Below are positions 17,097-30,691 of a DNA stretch of 64,000 nt, piece after piece; position 1 is the stretch's first letter; each line of letters begins with the position of its first letter. The position numbers and the translations under genes are program-made. The DNA comes from Maribacter cobaltidurans. Lineage in GTDB: Bacteria; Bacteroidota; Bacteroidia; Flavobacteriales; Flavobacteriaceae. The DNA lies in the NCBI RefSeq assembly GCF_002269385.1, contig NZ_CP022957.1, forward strand, positions 2,475,001 to 2,539,000, read 5' to 3'. The notes beneath the pieces were generated by a model. The model saw only the letters and a list, made by a program, of their open reading frames with translations, had not been told where the DNA came from and ran no database searches.

Positions 17097-18368
17097 CTAT
17101 AGGTCGTATTGTTTGATTTTTCTATATAACGTTCTTTCCGAGATACCCAACTCCGAAGCTGCGGCCTTTCTTTTGCCCCTATTTCTTTCCAAGGATTTTT
17201 TGATCAGTTCAACTTCCTTTTCCTGTAAAGATAAGGTTTCCTCTTCCTCGATTTCCTCGGCAAAGTGATATTTGTCTTCCTGAGGTGCAGGTGTGTAAGG
17301 CCGTTCTACCTTAGGTTCAGGTAAATGAAGGACCTCTAGGGGCGAAATATCCTGATCTTCTATTTCCTCTTCCTGTTTGTCTCCATAAATTTTTCGAATA
17401 AGGTTTTCATTTTCTTCCTGAACTTTTTGGCTATCATTGTTTTTAAGGAGTTCCATGGTCAACTTTTTAAGATCGTTGAGGTCCCCTTTCATATCGAAAA
17501 GTACTTTATACAGGATTTCCCGTTCATTACTGAAATCACCTTCCGATTTCTTATTGTTTACCACTGCGGGAAGGTTAGAGCCTACATTATGAGGTAGATA
17601 AGCATTTAGCGTGGACGCGCTAATGGAACGATTTTCTTCCAATACGGAAACCTGCTCTGCTATGTTTCGCAGTTGCCTAATATTACCTGGCCATCGGTAT
17701 TTTAAAAGAAGGTCTACGGCACTATCTTCCAGACGTATCGTGGGCATCTTATATTTCTGCCCAAAATCCGAAGCAAACTTTCTGAACAACAAATGGATAT
17801 CTTCCTGTCTTTCCCGCAAAGGCGGTATATTGATTTCAACCGTACTTAACCTGTAATAGAGGTCTTCCCTGAATTTTTCCTTCTTTATGGCCTCGAACAT
17901 ATTTACATTTGTCGCTGCCACGATTCTCACATTGGTCTTCTGAACCTGCGAGGAACCAACCTTAAGAAATTCGCCATTTTCCAGGACCCTAAGTAGTCTA
18001 ACTTGGGTGGTTAATGGAAGTTCCCCAACTTCATCCAAGAAAATGGTACCTCCGTCCGCTACCTCAAAATAACCGCTACGGGTTTGGGTAGCCCCTGTAA
18101 AGGCACCCTTTTCGTGTCCAAATAGTTCACTGTCTATAGTCCCTTCCGGAATAGCACCACAGTTTACCGCAATGTATTTGGCATGCTTTCTATGGGAAAG
18201 AGAATGAATGATTTTGGGTATGGACTCCTTACCAACACCACTTTCCCCGGTTACCAAAACGGATATATCGGTAGGTGCTACCTGTATGGCCTTTTCAATC
18301 GCCCTATTAAGTTTAGGGTCTTGGCCTATAATTTCAAAACGTTGTTTTATACTCTGTATACTTTCCAT
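17097..18368 (-). CDS. Sigma54-dependent transcriptional activator without receiver domain
   Basis: A 423-residue bacterial enhancer-binding protein. The AAA+ domain starts almost at once (residue 12): Walker A is GESGVGKE, the sigma54-contacting loop GAFTGA is intact, Walker B is GGTIFLDEVGEL, and the arginine-finger region follows. A low-complexity acidic linker (about 290-375) leads to a C-terminal Fis-type helix-turn-helix (KRKAAASELGISERTLYRKIKQ). There is no response-regulator or other sensory domain, so activity may be set by abundance or a partner. It is co-transcribed with miaB and lptE (gaps of 19 bases each). Targets are unknown; groESL has a matching type of promoter. Confidence 0.93.
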   Translation of the reverse strand: MESIQSIKQRFEIIGQDPKLNRAIEKAIQVAPTDISVLVTGESGVGKESIPKIIHSLSHRKHAKYIAVNCGAIPEGTIDSELFGHEKGAFTGATQTRSGYFEVADGGTIFLDEVGELPLTTQVRLLRVLENGEFLKVGSSQVQKTNVRIVAATNVNMFEAIKKEKFREDLYYRLSTVEINIPPLRERQEDIHLLFRKFASDFGQKYKMPTIRLEDSAVDLLLKYRWPGNIRQLRNIAEQVSVLEENRSISASTLNAYLPHNVGSNLPAVVNNKKSEGDFSNEREILYKVLFDMKGDLNDLKKLTMELLKNNDSQKVQEENENLIRKIYGDKQEEEIEDQDISPLEVLHLPEPKVERPYTPAPQEDKYHFAEEIEEEETLSLQEKEVELIKKSLERNRGKRKAAASELGISERTLYRKIKQYDL

Positions 18369-18387
18369 TTATAGTACAGTATCTTGC

Positions 18388-19833
18388 TTAGTTGTTAGAG
18401 GAATACCCAATGGCTTTTCCTAATAATGTAGCCGATGTACAATCCTGCATTTCTACCATCACAAAGTCGCCCACCTTATAATTTTCTTTAGGGAAAACCG
18501 CTACGGTATTCTGGGAGGTGCGTCCCATCCAATGTGCATCTGACTTTTTGGAGCTTCCCTCTATCAATACCTCCTGAGTCTTACCAAGATTGGCTTTTAT
18601 GCGTTCATAGGAATGTTGGCGTTGAAGTGCTATAATTTCTGAAAGCCGACGCTTTTTTATTTCGTTTGGAACATCATCTTCCAATTTACGTTCAGCAAGT
18701 GTTCCGGGTCTTTCGGAGTAAGCGAACATGAACCCGTAGTCATATTTTACATATTCCATCAATGACAATGTATCCTTATGGTCCTCTTCCTCTTCTGTGG
18801 GGAATCCCGTAATCATGTCTTGGGAAATGGCGCAATCCGGTATAATGTTCCTTATGTTGTCAATAAGTTCAAAGTACTCTTCGCGGGTATGCAGGCGATT
18901 CATCGCCTTTAATATTCTATTGCTTCCACTTTGCACGGGTAAATGAATGTAGTTGCATATATTTTCATACTTCGCCATGGTGTGGATTACATCCAAGGTC
19001 ATATCCTGAGGATTTGATGTGGAAAACCTAATTCTCATCTTAGGTTGGGCCAATGCCACTTTCTCCAATAATTGAGCGAAGCTGACGGCCATGGCCTTTT
19101 CCATTTCAGAGGCCTTGCCAAAATCTTTTTTTAATCCACCACCATACCAAAGATAGCTGTCCACATTTTGGCCCAAAAGGGTAACTTCCTTGAATCCCTT
19201 GTGCCACAGGTCGTTTACTTCCTTAATTATCGATTGTGGGTCCCTACTTCTTTCCCTTCCCCGGGTGAAAGGTACCACGCAAAAAGTGCACATGTTATCA
19301 CAGCCCCTGGTAATGGATACGAATGCGTTAACCCCGTTGGAGTTCAATCTTACAGGGGCCACATCCCCATAAGTCTCGTCCTTTGAAAGAATAACGTTAA
19401 CGGCATTTCTACCTTCATCGATTTCCTGGATGAGGTTGGGCAAATCTTTATAGGCATCGGGGCCCACCACCATATCCACTATTTTTTCTTCTTCAAGGAA
19501 CTGATGTTTCAAACGTTCTGCCATACACCCCAGTACACCAACTTTTAGATGTGGTCTATCCTTTTTAATGGTATTGAATTTCTCAAGACGTTTTCTTACG
19601 GTCAATTCGGCCTTTTCACGTATGGAACAGGTATTTACCAGAACTAAATCTGCGTCCTCCAATTTTTGGGTGGTGTTAAAACCTTCCTGTGCTAGAATGG
19701 AGGCCACAATCTCACTATCGGAAAAATTCATCTGACAACCATAACTCTCTATGTAGAGATTCCGCCCGTTGTGAATTTTATTTTCAGTTCTCAAAGCGGA
19801 ACCTTGAATGCTCTCGTCAATTGTTTTCTCCAT
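18388..19833 (-). CDS. miaB: tRNA-2-methylthio-N6-dimethylallyladenosine synthase MiaB
   Basis: MiaB is a radical-SAM methylthiotransferase that modifies A37 of certain tRNAs. The 481-residue protein has the N-terminal cluster-binding domain ([14 protein letters not shown]), the radical-SAM motif [21 protein letters not shown] and a C-terminal TRAM domain. It is the first gene of a five-gene minus-strand operon and has a full promoter match upstream at 19868-19899. Confidence 0.96.
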
Positions 19834-22196: not shown

Positions 22197-24686
22197 ATGG
22201 CCAAGAATTTAGTAATAGTTGAGTCTCCGGCGAAAGCAAAAACCATCGAAAAATTTCTGGGAAAGGATTTTAAGGTAGAGTCCAGTTTTGGACATATTGC
22301 AGATTTGCCGTCCAAGGAATTGGGAGTGGATGTGGAGAATGATTTTGCGCCCAAATATATTGTTGATAAGGAAAAAAAGGCCTTGGTCAAAAAATTAAAA
22401 GATCTTGCAAACAAAGCGGAAACCATATGGCTGGCAAGTGATGAAGATCGAGAAGGAGAAGCCATTTCTTGGCACTTGGCAGAAGAATTAGGCTTGGATA
22501 AAGAAAAAACGAAAAGAATTGTTTTTAACTCGGTTACAAAGGCCGCCATACAAAGGGCCATTGAAAATCCACGGGATATCAATTACAACTTGGTAAATGC
22601 CCAACAAGCTAGGAGGGTGTTGGATCGTTTGGTAGGGTATGAGCTGTCTCCGGTACTCTGGAAAAAGATAAAACCGGGATTATCTGCGGGTAGGGTGCAA
22701 TCCGTTGCCGTAAGACTTATTGTGGAGCGGGAGCGTGATATTGAAGCTTTTGTCCCGGAAGGATCCTTTAAGGTTTCTGCGGAGTTCAGAACGAATTCTG
22801 GCAGTGTTTTCCAGGCGAAGTTGCCAAAGTCCTTTGAATCCAAAGAGGAAGCGAATGCCTTTCTGGAAGAAAATATAGAAGCCAAATTTTCTGTAGCCAA
22901 ACTGGATAAAAAGCCTGCCAAGAAATCTCCCTCGGCACCATTTACCACTTCCACATTGCAGCAGGAGGCGTCAAGAAAGCTATATTTTTCGGTGGGCAGA
23001 ACCATGCAGGTGGCACAACGTTTGTACGAGGCCGGACTCATAACCTATATGAGAACGGATAGCGTAAACCTATCTGGCGAGGCAATAAATGCTGCCAAGG
23101 AGGCAATTGTTGAAAATTACGGAGAGAAGTATAGCAAGGTCAGAAACTTTACAGGCAAGTCCAAGGGAGCACAGGAGGCTCACGAGGCAATACGTCCCAC
23201 GGATATGGGAAATCAATCTCCTTCGCTTGAAAGAGACCAGGCAAAATTGTATGATCTTATTTGGAAAAGAACGATAGCGTCCCAAATGAGCGATGCTGAA
23301 TTGGAACGAACCAATGTACGCATTCAGGCAGATAAGCATTCCGAAGAATTTACGGCCAACGGAGAGGTCATTAAGTTTGATGGTTTCCTGAAAGTCTATC
23401 TTGAAGGTGTTGATGATGAGGACTTGGCAGAGGAACAGGATGGCATGCTTCCGGTATTGAAGGTAAACGAAGTTCTCTTAAACAATTATATTTCCGCCAC
23501 AGAGCGATTTACACGACCACCTTATCGATTTACCGAAGCTTCCTTGGTTAAAAAATTGGAGGAACTAGGAATAGGAAGGCCATCTACATATGCACCTACC
23601 ATTTCAACAATTTTAAACCGGGGATATGTAGAAAAGGGTACCGTTGAGGGTACCGAAAGAAAATATGCCCAATTGGTTTTGGAAGCCAATAGGATAAAGG
23701 AAAAGAACCTCACTGAAAATGTTGGTTCTGATAAAGGTAAAATGGTACCCACCGATATAGGAACCATTGTCACCGATTTCTTGGTCAGTAATTTTGGAAA
23801 TATCCTGGATTATAATTTTACCGCTCAGGTAGAAGAGGATTTTGATGAAATTGCTACGGGCGAGGAAGATTGGAAGAAAATGATGAAGAACTTTTATAAG
23901 GATTTTCATCCCAATGTGGTAGATGTTGAGGAAAATGCGGATCGTGCCAGTGGTGAACGTGTGCTGGGGAAAGACCCGAAAACTGGAAGACAGGTGTCTG
24001 TACGTTTAGGTAGATTTGGGCCCATGGTCCAGATTGGAACAGTAGAAGAGGAAGAAAAACCACTTTTTGCCAGTCTTTTGCCGGATCAATCATTAAATAC
24101 CATTACCTATGAGGAGGCTATGGACCTTTTTAAACTTCCAAGAAAATTAGGGGTTTACGAAGGTGAAGAAGTCGAGGCCAATGTAGGTAGGTTTGGACCT
24201 TATGTACGTTTTGGCAAGACCTTTATTTCGCTACCCAAGGATGAAAGTGCCATGGAAGTTGAAATGGAACGGGCCATAGAGTTAATAAAGGAGAAACAAG
24301 AGGCCGATGCCCCTATTGCCAGTTATGAAGGTGAGGATGTAACCAAAGGTGTCGGAAGATTTGGACCTTATATAAAATGGAACGGTATGTTTATCAATGT
24401 CAACAAAAAATATGACTTTGATAATTTGTCCAAAGATGATATTGTGGCGCTTATTGAAGACAAAAAGCAGAAGGAAAGAGAAAAAGTCGTTCAAAACTGG
24501 CCAGACCAGGGCATTAGAATTGAAAAGGCAAGATGGGGACGGCACAATATTATAAAAGGTAAAACTAAGGTCGAATTGGCCAAGACGGTGGATGTATCCA
24601 AAATGTCATTGGAAGAAGCTGCAGAATTAATTGAAAAAAAGGCTCCCAAAAAAAAGACGAAAGCGAAACCCAAATCAAAAAAGTAG
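22197..24686 (+). CDS. topA: DNA topoisomerase I
   Basis: Type IA topoisomerase that relaxes negative supercoils. The 829-residue protein opens with the Toprim domain (LVIVESPAKAKTIEKFLG; DEDREGEAISWHLAEEL). The catalytic Tyr lies in YMRTDSVNLS. The C-terminal part has three repeats of the GRFGP(M/Y)V type, about 75 residues apart, typical of the TopA C-terminal domain in Bacteroidota, and ends in a very basic Lys-rich tail (KKKTKAKPKSKK). The ATG at 22197 gives the expected MAKNLVIVESPAKA start. Confidence 0.97.
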   Translation: MAKNLVIVESPAKAKTIEKFLGKDFKVESSFGHIADLPSKELGVDVENDFAPKYIVDKEKKALVKKLKDLANKAETIWLASDEDREGEAISWHLAEELGLDKEKTKRIVFNSVTKAAIQRAIENPRDINYNLVNAQQARRVLDRLVGYELSPVLWKKIKPGLSAGRVQSVAVRLIVERERDIEAFVPEGSFKVSAEFRTNSGSVFQAKLPKSFESKEEANAFLEENIEAKFSVAKLDKKPAKKSPSAPFTTSTLQQEASRKLYFSVGRTMQVAQRLYEAGLITYMRTDSVNLSGEAINAAKEAIVENYGEKYSKVRNFTGKSKGAQEAHEAIRPTDMGNQSPSLERDQAKLYDLIWKRTIASQMSDAELERTNVRIQADKHSEEFTANGEVIKFDGFLKVYLEGVDDEDLAEEQDGMLPVLKVNEVLLNNYISATERFTRPPYRFTEASLVKKLEELGIGRPSTYAPTISTILNRGYVEKGTVEGTERKYAQLVLEANRIKEKNLTENVGSDKGKMVPTDIGTIVTDFLVSNFGNILDYNFTAQVEEDFDEIATGEEDWKKMMKNFYKDFHPNVVDVEENADRASGERVLGKDPKTGRQVSVRLGRFGPMVQIGTVEEEEKPLFASLLPDQSLNTITYEEAMDLFKLPRKLGVYEGEEVEANVGRFGPYVRFGKTFISLPKDESAMEVEMERAIELIKEKQEADAPIASYEGEDVTKGVGRFGPYIKWNGMFINVNKKYDFDNLSKDDIVALIEDKKQKEREKVVQNWPDQGIRIEKARWGRHNIIKGKTKVELAKTVDVSKMSLEEAAELIEKKAPKKKTKAKPKSKK

Positions 24687-24754
24687 TATAATTTTGAAAG
24701 GAAGTGATAGAAGGCTTCACTTTTAAATAATCAAAATCAATACTTAAAACCAAC

Positions 24755-25912
24755 ATGGCTTTTGATTTTTTAGTTCCTGTAGAGGATAGGGTGCTTGCCC
24801 ATTGCGAATTGTTGCCAGCCCAGGCAATAGGTAGAAATACATATATTCATACGGTTAAAGACGGTTTGCCGGTTTTAGCCAATGCGACCGTTGCGATTTT
24901 CGGCGTCAAAGAATCCAGGAATGCCTATGAAAAGAAGCTGGAAATTTTGGACGTTTCGGCGATTCGGTTACAGTTGTATAAACTGATGCTTGGTAACTGG
25001 GATACCACCATCGTGGATCTTGGCGATCTGGAAGAAGGTGAAACGGTCGAGGATACCTATTTTGTGGTCAAGGAGGTTACGGCCGGTCTTTTGGAAGAGG
25101 GCATTATACCTATAATATTAGGAGCTACGCAAGACATTACCTATCCGGCATATCGTGCTTTTGACGGAATTAAGGATATGATCAACTTGGTCTCCGTGGA
25201 TAGCCGATTTGATTTTGGTATTGATGATGAACTCATATCCTCCCATTCCTATATGAGCAAAATCATTACGGACAAGCCTAATAATCTTTTCAATTTTTCC
25301 AATATTGGCTATCAGAGTTATTTCAATGCTCAAGAGGAGGTGGATCTTATGGAGCGTCTTTTTTTTGACTCTTATAGGTTGGGAGAAATAGCCAACGATC
25401 TTTCTCTGGCGGAACCGGTGCTCAGAAATGCACACATGGTTAGCCTGGATTCAAGAGCCATAAAGGCCAGTGAAATTGGATTTTCAGGAAATTTTTCACC
25501 TAACGGATTTACGGGAAGGGAAATTTGTGCCATAGCAAGATACGCGGGTATTAGTGAGCGTGTCATGGTGTTTGGTATTTTTGAAATGGAAAACAATGTC
25601 CAATGTCAACAACTATTAGCTCATATAATATGGTACTTTATAGAAGGTATAAATTATCGTATCAAGGAGTCGCCCTACAATAAAACGGACGATTTTACCA
25701 AATATAATGTTCCCAACGAGGAAGAGGAGCTCGTTTTCTACAAGAGCCTTTTAACAGAAAGATGGTGGGTAGAGGTGCCATCTATTTTTACTTCACATAC
25801 TAAAGAAGGTACACAAGCGTTATTACCTTGCACAGAGCAGGATTATTTGGACGCATGTGACCAAAAAATTCCCGAACGGTGGTTTAAGGCCTATAAAAAG
25901 GGCTTTAATTAA
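24755..25912 (+). CDS. Arginase-fold protein with degenerate metal site, upstream of gldK
   Basis: A 385-residue protein of the ureohydrolase (arginase/agmatinase/formimidoylglutamase) superfamily by fold signatures. However, the manganese ligands are eroded. The GGDHS motif is GATQD (123-127), DAHxD is DSRFD (149-153) and SxDxD is SLDSR (230-234). The two ligand His and one Asp are thus replaced, while Asp149, Asp153 and Asp232 remain. The nearby NGFTGREICAIARYAG matches the conserved helix of true family members. It lies 68 bases after topA and 120 bases before gldK. Catalysis seems unlikely; a structural or regulatory role, perhaps with gliding/T9SS, is inference. Confidence 0.8.
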   Translation: MAFDFLVPVEDRVLAHCELLPAQAIGRNTYIHTVKDGLPVLANATVAIFGVKESRNAYEKKLEILDVSAIRLQLYKLMLGNWDTTIVDLGDLEEGETVEDTYFVVKEVTAGLLEEGIIPIILGATQDITYPAYRAFDGIKDMINLVSVDSRFDFGIDDELISSHSYMSKIITDKPNNLFNFSNIGYQSYFNAQEEVDLMERLFFDSYRLGEIANDLSLAEPVLRNAHMVSLDSRAIKASEIGFSGNFSPNGFTGREICAIARYAGISERVMVFGIFEMENNVQCQQLLAHIIWYFIEGINYRIKESPYNKTDDFTKYNVPNEEEELVFYKSLLTERWWVEVPSIFTSHTKEGTQALLPCTEQDYLDACDQKIPERWFKAYKKGFN

Positions 25913-26032
25913 TTGAAAAATTAGTAAGACATAAAATTATTAATACAATAATTTATTCAAAAGATAGTTTTAAGAATTAGAATAACATTATAGTATTTAC
26001 ATTTTAACCATAATCGAAATTTAACCTAAAGT

Positions 26033-27397
26033 ATGAAGAAGCTATTGTTATCATCTATAGCGTTTGTTTTTTTGCTCACGAGTTGTGGGTCAAAGACTAA
26101 AGGAGAGCTAGTCGGAGCCCAGGGCAAAAAATGGTATCCCGAAAAACCATATGGAATGGAACTTATCCCAAGGGGTTCTTTCATTATGGGTAAAAGTGAA
26201 GAAGACCAAGCCAAAGTATTGAACGCACCTACAAAGACAGTTACGGTAAGATCCTTTTATATGGACGATACTGAAATTACCAATAGTGAATACCGTCAAT
26301 TCGTGGAATGGGTAAAGGATTCTATAACCAGAACACGTTTGGCCATTTTGGCCGATGAGCTTGGAATTGGACCCGAGGATGGAGGAATTGGGGATTATGC
26401 ATTTAAGGATGCGGATACTACCAGAGCCTCTGTTTATGATAAATATATGCTTGATAATTATTCAGGTATGGGAGAAACTGGTTATGAAGGAAGGGCTCTA
26501 AATAAAGATGAGGACCTCATTTGGGACACTTCAGAATATCCGGACGAATATTACGCCGAGGTGATGGATTCATTGTATATTCCAGAAGAGGAATCCTATA
26601 ATGGTCAAAGAAGCATCGATGTAACTAAGCTAAAATATAAGTATAGCTGGATGGATATCGAGGCAGCAGCTCGTGCTTCAAAAAAAGGCAAAGGCAGCAG
26701 AAAGGACTTTATCCGTCATGAGGAATTGGAAATATATCCAGATACTACAGTATGGATCAGGGATTTTGAATACTCCTATAACGAACCAATGCATAACGAT
26801 TATTTTTGGCACGATGCCTACAGTGATTACCCGGTAGTTGGAATCTCTTGGCAACAGGCAAAAGCTTTCTGTAATTGGAGAACAAAGTTTAAAAACGATG
26901 ACCAAAAAAGTCGTGGAAAGCAATTTGTGAACCAATTTAGGTTACCTACAGAAGCAGAGTGGGAATATGCCGCAAGAGGTGGAATTGAAGGAGGTACTTA
27001 TCCTTGGGGTGGTCCATATGTAATTAGTGACACGGGTTGTTTTATGGCTAACTTTAAGCCTCAGCGAGGTGATTACGCAGCGGATGCCGCTTTGTACACG
27101 GTAGAAGCCAAGTCCTATGAGCCGAATGACTTTAACTTATACAATATGGCCGGTAACGTGGCGGAATGGACCAACTCCAGTTATGATCCAAGTGCGTACG
27201 ATTATGTATCCACTATGAACCCTAACGGAGGTGATCAATCCAATACGAGAAAAGTTATCAGAGGTGGTTCCTGGAAAGATGTTGCCTATTTCTTACAAGT
27301 AAGCACAAGGGATTACGAATATGCGGATTCTGCCCGTAGTTACATAGGCTTCAGAACCGTACAGGATTACATGGGCGAAGAAGATTCAACGCAATAA
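26033..27397 (+). CDS. gldK: Gliding motility/T9SS lipoprotein GldK
   Basis: GldK (PorK in Porphyromonas) forms, with GldN, the periplasmic ring of the type IX secretion system and gliding motor. The 454-residue protein has a lipoprotein signal ending LLTSCGSK (Cys18) and an FGE-sulfatase-like fold: YGMELIPRGSFIMG, GISWQQAKAFCNW, FRLPTEAEWEYAARGG, YNMAGNVAEWTNSSY, VIRGGSWKD and YIGFRTVQ. It is the first of gldK-gldL-gldM-gldN, all on the plus strand. I could not find a strict promoter in the 120 bases upstream. Confidence 0.97.
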   Translation: MKKLLLSSIAFVFLLTSCGSKTKGELVGAQGKKWYPEKPYGMELIPRGSFIMGKSEEDQAKVLNAPTKTVTVRSFYMDDTEITNSEYRQFVEWVKDSITRTRLAILADELGIGPEDGGIGDYAFKDADTTRASVYDKYMLDNYSGMGETGYEGRALNKDEDLIWDTSEYPDEYYAEVMDSLYIPEEESYNGQRSIDVTKLKYKYSWMDIEAAARASKKGKGSRKDFIRHEELEIYPDTTVWIRDFEYSYNEPMHNDYFWHDAYSDYPVVGISWQQAKAFCNWRTKFKNDDQKSRGKQFVNQFRLPTEAEWEYAARGGIEGGTYPWGGPYVISDTGCFMANFKPQRGDYAADAALYTVEAKSYEPNDFNLYNMAGNVAEWTNSSYDPSAYDYVSTMNPNGGDQSNTRKVIRGGSWKDVAYFLQVSTRDYEYADSARSYIGFRTVQDYMGEEDSTQ

Positions 27398-27475: not shown

Positions 27476-28126
27476 ATGGCACAGTCAAAATCAACAAAAA
27501 AATTATTCAACATGGCCTACGGGCTTGGAGCATCAGTCGTAATCATAGGTGCATTATTTAAAATTCTTCACTGGGAGTTTGGACCTTTAACAGGTGGTCT
27601 TTTATTGGCGATCGGTCTTATTACAGAAGCATTGATCTTCGCTATTAGTGCATTTGAACCAGTAGACGATGAATTGGATTGGTCTTTAGTCTATCCAGAA
27701 TTAGCTGGCGGGGAATCCAAAGGAAGAAAAAATGAACTAGCTGAAGTTAAGGAAGCAGAAACTTCTTTGTCCAAAAAATTGGATGATCTTTTAAAAGAGG
27801 CAGGTGTTGACGCCAGCCTAATGGAGAGCTTGGGATCTAGCATCAAGAACTTTGAAGGTGCTGCGAAAGGTATCGCTCCTACTGTTGATGCTATGGAGTC
27901 TACAAGAAAGTATTCCGAAGAAATGGTACAGGCTGCCGCTCAAATGGAATCTTTAAACAGTCTTTATAAAGTACAATTGGAAAGTGCTAGCAGACAAGCT
28001 TCCGTTAACGAGGAAGTTGTTCAGAATGCAAGTGCGCTTAAAGAGCAAATGGCTTCATTGTCCACAAACCTTTCTTCTTTGAATGGTGTTTATGGTGGAA
28101 TGTTGTCCGCAATGAACAGAAACTAA
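27476..28126 (+). CDS. gldL: Gliding motility/T9SS inner-membrane motor protein GldL
   Basis: GldL and GldM form the proton-driven rotary motor of the T9SS. The 216-residue protein has two membrane helices at about residues 12-31 and 38-57, containing the conserved ILHWEFGPLTGG and GLITEALIFAISAFEP. The second helix carries the Glu expected to handle protons. The C-terminal half is cytoplasmic, with helices that could be coiled coil. It lies 78 bases after gldK. Confidence 0.97.
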   Translation: MAQSKSTKKLFNMAYGLGASVVIIGALFKILHWEFGPLTGGLLLAIGLITEALIFAISAFEPVDDELDWSLVYPELAGGESKGRKNELAEVKEAETSLSKKLDDLLKEAGVDASLMESLGSSIKNFEGAAKGIAPTVDAMESTRKYSEEMVQAAAQMESLNSLYKVQLESASRQASVNEEVVQNASALKEQMASLSTNLSSLNGVYGGMLSAMNRN

Positions 28127-28184: not shown

Positions 28185-29741
28185 ATGGCAGGAGGAAAAC
28201 AAACACCACGTCAGAAGATGATCAACCTAATGTACTTGATCTTCATCGCAATGCTGGCGTTAAATATGAGTAAAGAGGTGCTAGCAGCATTCGGCATAAT
28301 GAACGAAAAGCTAGAGACTTCTAATGAAATGACTACGGCAAGTAACGAAGCGTTCTTGGGTAGTCTGGAAACAAAAGCATCTGAAGATGCGGCTAAATAC
28401 GAAAAGCTGTACCAAGATGCCCAGAAAATCAAAGCAATGTCCCAAGAGTATTATGACTATTTACAAACTCTTAAAGACGGAATGACGGAGGGATTGGAAG
28501 ACCCTAAGGATTATGCCCGTATGGATAATTCAGATTATTTGGATCAGAAATTCTTCCAAGGAGATAATTTATCAGAAGGTGGTCAAGAGTTTATGAAAAG
28601 ACTTACCGACTATAGAGATCAAGTTGCCGCTATTGTTCCGGCGTCTTTGAAGCAATCTGTTATCGATAGATTTCAGACTGGCAACGAAGAAGGAAAAGTA
28701 AAGGCAAAGGATGGTATGCAAGATTGGATCAACTATCATTACGAGGGATATCCCCTTGTGGCCTCTTTGGCAAAATTGACTGCTTTACAAGCTGATGTTA
28801 AAGCTACTGAAGAATCTGCCTTGAAATCTATGTTGGAAGGAGAGTTAACAAGTCAAGTTTCTTTAAAGAACTTTGCAACATCACTTTCTGCATCTAAATC
28901 TGCTTATTATGCCGGAGAAAGGTATGATGGTAAAATCATCATCAGTAAAACGGATAATACTTCTACTCCGGTAAGAGCTGAATTGACTTTGGACGGCAGA
29001 AAGCTTTCTGAAGGTACAGACTACAAATTGGAAGCTGGTGGTGTTAAAATGTTGATTGGAGCCGGTTCTGCCGGAGACCACGAGGTAGAAGGTACGATTT
29101 TCTTCAAGCAGGACGGAGAAGAAATAGAAGTACCTGTTAAAAACTCCTTTGCTACCATTTCAAAACCAAATTCAGCATTGATCGCTGCAGATAAGATGAA
29201 CGTTGTGTATCGTGGTGTAGCCAACCCAATGTCCATCTCTATCCCTGGTATTCCAGATAATAAAGTAAGTGCTTCCGCTCCCGGACTTAAGAAAGTGAGT
29301 GCTAGTAAGTACGTAATGAATCCAGGTACAGGTAGGGAAGTTACTATTAATGCTAGTGGTATTTTACCTGACGGTACAAAAATAAATACACCGGCTACGT
29401 TTAGGATTAAGGATATTCCAAGACCTGAAGGTACGCTTAGCAAGCAGGCAGGTAGTGTAAAATTACCTAGGGCCAACGTTGAGATTGCTACAATTGGCGC
29501 TATGTTGGATGATTTTGATTTTGACTTGAACCTTGCGGTAAGCGGATTTAAGTTCAAAGTTCCAGGTCAGCCTACAGTAAGTGTTAGAGGTAATAAGTTG
29601 GACTCTAAAGCTAAAGCTGCATTGAAACGTGCAGGTAGAGGTGATGTGGTTCAGATCTTCGATATCGAAGCATATATTACGAACAACAAAAGTTACAAAT
29701 TGAAGAAAGTATCTCCGGTAGTTGTGGAGATAACAAACTAA
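28185..29741 (+). CDS. gldM: Gliding motility/T9SS motor protein GldM
   Basis: GldM crosses the inner membrane once and reaches through the periplasm to the GldK/GldN ring. The 518-residue protein starts with the family hallmark MAGGKQTPRQKMINLMYLIF, a single membrane helix at about residues 13-33, then a helical D1 domain and several beta-rich domains. The length matches known GldM/PorM. It is 58 bases after gldL and 62 bases before gldN. Confidence 0.97.
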   Translation: MAGGKQTPRQKMINLMYLIFIAMLALNMSKEVLAAFGIMNEKLETSNEMTTASNEAFLGSLETKASEDAAKYEKLYQDAQKIKAMSQEYYDYLQTLKDGMTEGLEDPKDYARMDNSDYLDQKFFQGDNLSEGGQEFMKRLTDYRDQVAAIVPASLKQSVIDRFQTGNEEGKVKAKDGMQDWINYHYEGYPLVASLAKLTALQADVKATEESALKSMLEGELTSQVSLKNFATSLSASKSAYYAGERYDGKIIISKTDNTSTPVRAELTLDGRKLSEGTDYKLEAGGVKMLIGAGSAGDHEVEGTIFFKQDGEEIEVPVKNSFATISKPNSALIAADKMNVVYRGVANPMSISIPGIPDNKVSASAPGLKKVSASKYVMNPGTGREVTINASGILPDGTKINTPATFRIKDIPRPEGTLSKQAGSVKLPRANVEIATIGAMLDDFDFDLNLAVSGFKFKVPGQPTVSVRGNKLDSKAKAALKRAGRGDVVQIFDIEAYITNNKSYKLKKVSPVVVEITN

Positions 29742-29803: not shown

Positions 29804-30691
29804 ATGAATTGGAAAAATGTTTTAGTAATGGGCGCGGTAACCTTGTTGCCGGCTTCCATAATGGCTCAGGCCAATATCTTGAACGCTAAAAAACCACAAG
29901 AAATAGGGGTTCGTACGGAAGAACAAAAAGCCGTGGACAACGATGCTCCTTTGGAATACGGTTATGTGGATGATCGGGATATTCTTTGGTCCAAAACACT
30001 GTGGGAAACCATTGATTTGGATGAAAGGGTAAACTTTCCCTTGTATTATCCAACAGATACCATGGATATAGGTAAAGACAGAAGGTCTTTGTACCATGTG
30101 TTGATCAAAAATCTTAAGGAAGGTAATCTGGAAGCCTATGCGGATTCCTATTTTACCGAGAAAAGAACCTATAATGACTTATCCGGTGCACTACAGTCAG
30201 TGGATACATTGGACTATGGTTATGAACAAATGAATGCTGGGGAGCAGGTTTCTGCCGAATACATTACCCGTAGAAATATCACTGCAGGTGAAATTGAGGA
30301 ATACCATATCAAAGGAATGTGGTATTTTGATAAAAGACAGGGGGAGTTAAAATATCGTTTATTGGGTATTGCTCCAGTTGCGCCGGACGTAAACTTCATC
30401 GATGATGAAAATCCTGATATGGTGGAGTTGTTTTGGGTATGGTATCCAGATGCTCGTGAAATTTTGCACGAGGCCAAAGTCTTTAACCAGCAAAATTCCG
30501 CTCAACCCATCTCTTATGATATGTTGCTGAACGCAAGAAGGTTTAATGCTGTTATCTATAAAGAAGACAATGTTCATGGAGACCGTGAGGTCAGCGAATA
30601 TATTGCGGACAATGCACTTTTCCAATTGTTGGAGGCTAAACGTATCAAGGAAGCTATTAGGGACAGGGAACAAGATATGTGGGCATACTAA
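29804..30691 (+). CDS. gldN: Gliding motility/T9SS ring protein GldN
   Basis: GldN (PorN) binds GldK in the periplasmic ring. The 295-residue protein has a signal peptide ending ASIMAQA and the family segments DRDILWSKTLWETIDLDERVNFPLY (shown in part) and NPDMVELFWVWYPDAR. No gldO paralogue follows, unlike in F. johnsoniae. The operon closes with a strong terminator at 30721-30748. Confidence 0.96.
   Translation: MNWKNVLVMGAVTLLPASIMAQANILNAKKPQEIGVRTEEQKAVDNDAPLEYGYVDDRDILWSKTLWETIDLDERVNFPLYYPTDTMDIGKDRRSLYHVLIKNLKEGNLEAYADSYFTEKRTYNDLSGALQSVDTLDYGYEQMNAGEQVSAEYITRRNITAGEIEEYHIKGMWYFDKRQGELKYRLLGIAPVAPDVNFIDDENPDMVELFWVWYPDAREILHEAKVFNQQNSAQPISYDMLLNARRFNAVIYKEDNVHGDREVSEYIADNALFQLLEAKRIKEAIRDREQDMWAY

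Follow-up and report, generated by a model that had tools for sequence, protein, structure and literature searches.

The gene directly upstream of gldK in the window (the whole stretch of 64,000 nucleotides of Maribacter cobaltidurans DNA that was analysed) codes for a pseudo-ureohydrolase whose family is both large and old in the Bacteroidia. We refer to the gene as argL, a name coined only here, and to its product as ArgL. With roughly an even chance of being right, we would describe ArgL as a cytoplasmic, non-catalytic binding protein that carries an added, conserved C-terminal module and has no obligatory role in T9SS. The features on which the argument turns are the following.

22197..24686, + strand: topA, DNA topoisomerase I, the upstream neighbour (Pfam Topoisom_bac, 409.7 bits)
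24687..24754, + strand: gap between topA and argL, 68 nt as measured in the window
24755..25912, + strand: argL, pseudo-ureohydrolase of 385 aa, with the arginase fold and altered metal motifs
25121..25135, + strand: GATQD, residues 123–127, at the GGxH(D/S) position (H101 replaced by Q126)
25199..25213, + strand: DSRFD, residues 149–153, at the DAHxD position (D124 and D128 kept, H126 replaced by R151)
25442..25456, + strand: SLDSR, residues 230–234, at the SxDxD position (D232 kept, D234 replaced by R234)
25667..25909, + strand: C-terminal module, residues 305–385, past the matched arginase fold (W337, W338, C359 and Y364 highly conserved)
25913..26032, + strand: gap between argL and gldK, 120 nt as measured in the window
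26033..27397, + strand: gldK (FGE-sulfatase domain, 174.7 bits), followed by gldL, gldM and gldN
27476..28126, + strand: gldL (GldL_N, 99.3 bits)
28185..29741, + strand: gldM (four GldM domains)
29804..30691, + strand: gldN (GldN, 221.5 bits)

If the metal motifs of ArgL are altered, is the fold retained? The original prediction, made from the DNA alone, held that it is, and at 24755–25912 both the three altered motifs and the fold of the arginase superfamily (arginase fold/PF00491, above the cut-off) were confirmed. The best structural matches include HutG (4mxr from T. cruzi, 3m1r from B. subtilis) and chains of metformin hydrolase (8x3g, 8ryi, 8snf). We mapped ArgL on the HutG of its own genome at the ligand positions, which we take to be numbered H101, D124, H126, D128, D232, D234 and E277. 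There ArgL has Q, D, R, D, D, R and E, respectively. Three of the six ligands of the two-metal site are kept, short of the set of a catalytic ureohydrolase.

How general is this loss? The ligand alignment contains 143 family rows, 140 of them with letters at all positions; two bacterial families, f3 (24 rows) and f1 (21 rows), are over-represented. Four of the six ligands are kept in 32 members, three in 83, two in 10, one in 14 and none in 1. With five or six ligands in none of the 140, no family member among them has an intact site, and the conserved pseudoenzyme of the original prediction stands. H126 is retained in six rows and D234 in nine (eight from f2, one from f5), never in the same row. 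Since no member keeps five or six ligands, and since H126 and D234 never occur together, two-metal chemistry has been lost at the level of the family. D124, H126, D232, D234 and E277 are present in each of the 12 canonical controls; D128 is kept in 11, and H101 is H in 8 and N in 4. Ten canonical controls are weak matches of the single-sequence search in other classes, and these were found to be canonical-like. Among the named loci (the best 80 of 572, hence close relatives) the substitutions are fixed, as H101 is Q in 80/80 and H126 and D234 are kept in 0/80, with the three aspartates present in 80/80.

Named database entries call the argL protein formimidoylglutamase, formiminoglutamase or arginase. 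These identities are ruled out by the lost ligands, by the score with the best-scoring NCBIfam model, TIGR01227 (33.7 bits against an equivalog cut-off of 229, or 229.15 unrounded), and by the separate HutG of the same genome, which scores 293.1 bits with that model. The suspicion that the label was wrong had been voiced at the outset and was well founded. In comparison with HutG (TIGR01227; 4mxr, 3m1r), ArgL has the same fold and the same order of strands and motifs, but it is without three metal ligands, has an extra C-terminal module and lies outside any hut cluster. The genome contains two canonical ureohydrolase paralogues (an agmatinase and HutG), and its three arginase-family genes are far apart. 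The ORF adjoining HutG is presumably urocanate hydratase; at the argL locus there are no histidine-utilisation neighbours, the adjoining genes being topA and gldK. Because of the mislabel, pathway reconstructions will credit organisms with a step of histidine breakdown that argL cannot supply in the known way.

What distinguishes ArgL besides its ligands? At its C terminus it has gained a conserved module of some 80 residues. When conservation was counted in 79 sequences from 62 families (at most three rows per family), the most conserved positions included Q187, E220, P221, R224 and W293 together with W337, W338, C359 and Y364 of the module. The consensus of a 23-row alignment reads RLGE, EPxxRxAD, TxRWWM and PCSYxDY, and the invariant residues specific to the argL family sit in EPxxR, in RWW, and in C359 and the DY that follows. 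Matches of the module to SH3 families are faint (SH3b_P2 in 3/18 members, best E 0.0013), and the module modelled alone gave no fold match. An SH3-like nature of the module is weakly hinted at by sequence and finds no support from fold.

A search with the single sequence found relatives in 151/395 genomes across the phylum. With E 1e-5 as the limit, the 23-row profile finds a match in 366/395 Bacteroidia genomes. Canonical paralogues also pass this limit (1e-6 to 1e-14), and at least three of the positives (G448, G479 and G477), probably divergent or fragmentary, have best E-values near 1e-17 to 1e-20. In almost all of the genomes sampled the gene is intact. Of the 29 negative genomes, nine were inferred from the SprA list. 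In a tree of 139 rows, 127 family rows are split from the 12 canonical rows by one branch (SH-aLRT 100) of length 1.22, drawn on the family side under a midpoint root. The tree omits 16 of 155 rows, eight of them fragmentary or very divergent and eight further Sphingobacterium.

If the gene is so widespread, does it go with T9SS? We scored the presence of SprA and of GldL each as a match to one Pfam domain (SprA_N and GldL_N). Among 395 Bacteroidia, argL and SprA occur together in 360 genomes, argL alone in 6, SprA alone in 23 and neither in 6 (Fisher p 6e-5, relatedness uncorrected). The association is real in this simple count, yet loose. Completeness reaches 90% or more in fifteen of the 23 genomes with SprA alone, among them all four of the sampled Spirosomataceae (f10), and all four have SprA and GldL without argL. 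We read f10 as Spirosomataceae because one of its genomes (G190) encodes a GldL with 90% identity to the Runella zeae protein.

The reciprocal situation is found in Sphingobacterium. In this genus argL is present in 60/60 genomes, SprA_N in 18 and GldL_N in 53; 42/60 have argL without SprA_N and 7/60, two of them single-contig, have argL without either domain. The SprA-less genomes have likely lost all T9SS activity; matches to the T9SS cargo tail (TIGR04183) fail to separate the two groups, at least one being present in 18/18 genomes, SprA-positive or SprA-negative alike. The Sphingobacterium argL copies are full-length in the profile match. For nine pairs of copies dN is 0.06–0.25, with dS not computable and taken as saturated; dN is 0.11–0.25 in five SprA-less pairs and 0.06–0.09 in three SprA-positive pairs, and one pair is mixed. 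Mean identity is 0.73 among ten SprA-less copies and 0.79 among six SprA-positive ones.

We conclude that the distribution rules out an obligatory role: argL occurs without SprA and GldL, SprA and GldL occur without argL, and the gene is not one that is present with T9SS and absent without it. Because argL persists where SprA is gone (and, in seven genomes, where GldL is gone too), and because T9SS genes survive the loss of argL, the main job of ArgL would be independent of T9SS, and it is probably broader than secretion. The original prediction had named independence from T9SS as the observation that would tell against it. That independence is found in part, in the 42 and the seven Sphingobacterium genomes and in the 15 genomes, at least 90% complete, with SprA and without argL.

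How constant, then, is the neighbourhood seen in the window? We scored 126 loci from 64 families, in fetched stretches of up to about 20 kb, some ending at contig ends, and counted as upstream or downstream a gene within two genes. Two further loci (L057, L058) were dropped, the ORF filter having preferred a longer frame that overlapped. The name gldJ is our own and was given to any FGE-sulfatase protein beside porU/porP or murF. On the same strand, gldK or porP lies downstream of argL in 56/126 loci and 34/64 families, and 53 of these 56 loci also have topA upstream. In seven loci topA is present without gldK or porP, and three have gldK or porP without topA. Four others (three from f5, one from f98) lie at a cluster of porU and a gldJ-like gene instead, so that two more families show linkage to T9SS genes; in one locus (L110) sprA is upstream of a cluster of this type. 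None of the tested neighbours was present in the fetched stretches of 59/126 loci, and in 24/64 families they are absent from every locus scored.

The label 'next to gldK/porP' changes 6 times on the tree, as against 40.9 in shuffles, in a set that includes close relatives. This fits one old arrangement that was broken up several times. The gene order topA-argL-(porP)-gldKLMN is widespread. That argL stands directly before gldK, as first noted from the window, is also seen in the 80 named loci (best 80 of 572), where gldK follows in 80/80. In 70 of these topA precedes argL by the rule of the script and in nine more by coordinates, the ORF start having been chosen inside topA; the last is a contig end. 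A sigma-54 activator and a miaB-like gene, on the opposite strand upstream of topA (17097–19833, − strand, in the window), recur in many linked loci. The block of sigma-54 activator, miaB-like gene, topA, argL and gld looks like an old conserved chromosomal segment. In two families (L077, L078, L120) argL has beside it a recurrent cluster of murF and a gldJ-like gene, together with porU.

To which of its neighbours does argL belong? The gap between topA and argL has a median of 12 nt in 20 Flavobacteriaceae loci, 16 nt in 33 others and 7.5 nt in 70 named loci. From argL to the next gene the medians are 118 nt in Flavobacteriaceae, 145 nt in the others and 121 nt in the 80 named loci. Against these medians the window itself has 68 nt and 120 nt. 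Such short distances from topA suggest that, where the genes stand in the common order, a topA unit ends with argL and is followed by a porP-gldKLMN unit. In that arrangement argL probably shares a transcript with topA, whose function is a general cellular one, gene spacing being a different thing from a transcript map. The sequence TAnnTTTG, which we take to be the Bacteroidetes promoter motif, occurs between argL and the next gene in 4/20 Flavobacteriaceae loci (3.0 expected) and 10/36 elsewhere (4.0 expected), and between topA and argL in 0/20 (0.4 expected) and 3/33 (1.1 expected), respectively, frequencies too weak for the mapping of transcripts.

Covariation points in the same direction, in part. 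When topA is held constant, the pairwise distances computed for argL in 49 loci correlate at 0.14–0.20 with those of gldK, gldL, gldM and gldN, as against 0.72–0.86 among the gld genes themselves. In a set of 34 loci the corresponding values for argL are 0.23, 0.02, 0.18 and 0.22, and 0.09 for the sigma-54 regulator. These low partial correlations indicate that argL lacks the close covariation that the motor genes show among themselves; a weak tie is possible. With miaB held constant, the values are 0.48 for topA, 0.42, 0.23, 0.38 and 0.42 for gldK, gldL, gldM and gldN, and 0.37 for the regulator.

Taken together, several observations argue for the binding protein with which we began: the loss of ligands, the long branch with an SH-aLRT of 100, the presence in 366/395 genomes, the invariant residues specific to the family, the retention in Sphingobacterium and the dN values of its SprA-less pairs, the spacing to topA, the seven loci with topA alone as against three of the reverse kind, and the weak covariation with the gld genes. 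ArgL would be cytoplasmic, no signal sequence being seen by eye, and would act by binding rather than by catalysis. Its ligand, held by the cleft of the former active site and the new C-terminal face, may be a small molecule or another protein. The position before gldKLMN would mainly reflect old gene order, help to the T9SS motor being optional. Other observations tell against this reading. Linkage to T9SS genes in 34 families, and in two more at the gldJ/porU-type cluster, exceeds what indifferent gene order would give, and argL does go with SprA over the 395 Bacteroidia. Of the 42 SprA-less Sphingobacterium, 35 keep a GldL-type protein, the cargo tails are uninformative and the SprA-less copies are less alike. 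With miaB held constant, argL tracks gldK, gldM and gldN about as well as it tracks topA.

The same observations lend themselves to a role in the motor. ArgL might be a cytoplasmic accessory of the T9SS or gliding motor that, for example, assembles or tunes GldLM through binding to the cytoplasmic GldL tail; genomes without T9SS would then have a leftover GldLM or a second role for ArgL. A cytoplasmic domain of GldL is described in passages of PMC8986121 and PMC10202324. The linkage to gldK/porP, the 80 named relatives, the loci at the gldJ/porU-type cluster and the GldL retained in most SprA-less Sphingobacterium all favour such an accessory. Set against it are the seven Sphingobacterium genomes without either domain, the Spirosomataceae and others that have SprA and GldL without argL, the weak covariation with the gld genes, the closer spacing to topA and the 24 families without the tested neighbours. 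We consider it possible, with something like half the standing of the binding protein. The accessory T9SS role raised by the original prediction is unsupported as it was stated, given the distribution and the spacing; a motor-related role is possible in the part of the phylum that keeps the linkage. The gldKLMN/porKLMN motor genes are conserved neighbours of argL, but the distribution of argL does not match that of T9SS. A more speculative and rather improbable form makes ArgL a cytoplasmic regulator of the GldLM rotary motor: the dead site would sense a guanidino or polyamine ligand and the C-terminal module would bind the tail of GldL, tying motor output to nitrogen status, with other GldLM-type or housekeeping targets where T9SS is lost.

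In two SprA-less Sphingobacterium loci there is a gldL-gldM pair, at L163 (G002) and L164 (G785), one with gldN and gldK on the other strand, the other without these in the fetched DNA. The possibility of a GldLM motor that runs without SprA in this genus is worth a look. A dead enzyme present in 366/395 Bacteroidia, and near T9SS motor genes in about half of 64 families, also lends itself well to study by simple deletion. Its case illustrates that a conserved neighbourhood by itself can overstate a functional link. In the parts of the T9SS literature consulted no arginase-family component is named, and in the open-licence literature no link was found between an arginase-family or formimidoylglutamase gene and T9SS, gliding, gldK or Flavobacterium.

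Might ArgL instead have been re-purposed as a different enzyme? Site A (Q or H at 101, D124, D128 and D232) might hold one cation for another reaction, or a metal-free pocket might do the work. The three site-A aspartates are all retained in 111/140 members, and site A is complete, with four ligands, in 28/140; in ArgL the aspartates (D149, D153 and D232) rank 42, 47 and 34 of 385 positions by conservation. Judged from these alignments, many members, though not all, could still have a one-cation site, a point that goes beyond the original prediction. Against a new enzyme, the protein persists in f2 although 7/7 full rows keep no ligand of the six but that at the D234 position, and 51/143 rows have N or G where the catalytic glutamate, E277, would stand. 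Nor do the unlinked families have a metabolic neighbour in common. The clusters beside argL differ among them (phenylalanyl-tRNA synthetase, 3-hydroxyacyl-CoA dehydrogenase, D-Ala-D-Ala carboxypeptidase, MutL, a SIS domain and others), and as they vary by family we dropped shared metabolic neighbours as a clue to role. A re-purposed enzyme seems to us improbable, about on a par with the nitrogen-sensing regulator.

Least probable, and quite unlikely, is a dead subunit of the MetCb kind that would form a hetero-oligomer with an active ureohydrolase made in its own cell, the agmatinase and HutG encoded elsewhere in the genome being candidates: passages of PMC11271267 describe metformin hydrolase as a pair of metal-free pseudo-subunit and active ureohydrolase subunit, its chains are among the best structural matches of ArgL and the genome has two canonical paralogues, but no second ureohydrolase lies beside argL among the window ORFs and the protein families matched there, and both canonical genes are distant. 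MetCb/MfmB (8x3g, 8ryi, 8snf) resembles ArgL in having a ureohydrolase fold without a working two-metal centre; unlike it, argL does not adjoin the gene of an active partner in this genome and has a far wider distribution.

The combination of an arginase fold with a lost metal cluster has a eukaryotic counterpart. Hai and colleagues reportedly described, in 2015, a Trypanosoma brucei arginase-like protein without the manganese cluster; it differs from ArgL in being eukaryotic.

Finally, two groups of copies stand apart. In f2 (L068–L074), where five ligand positions and the linkage to gldK are gone and the protein is retained, topA lies at most two genes upstream in 4/7 loci. In f5 (L076–L079) the copies are short (277–351 aa), very divergent and match mainly in their second half. 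Three of these four loci are close to porU and a gldJ-like gene. The f5 copies may be in decay, or they may represent a new form.
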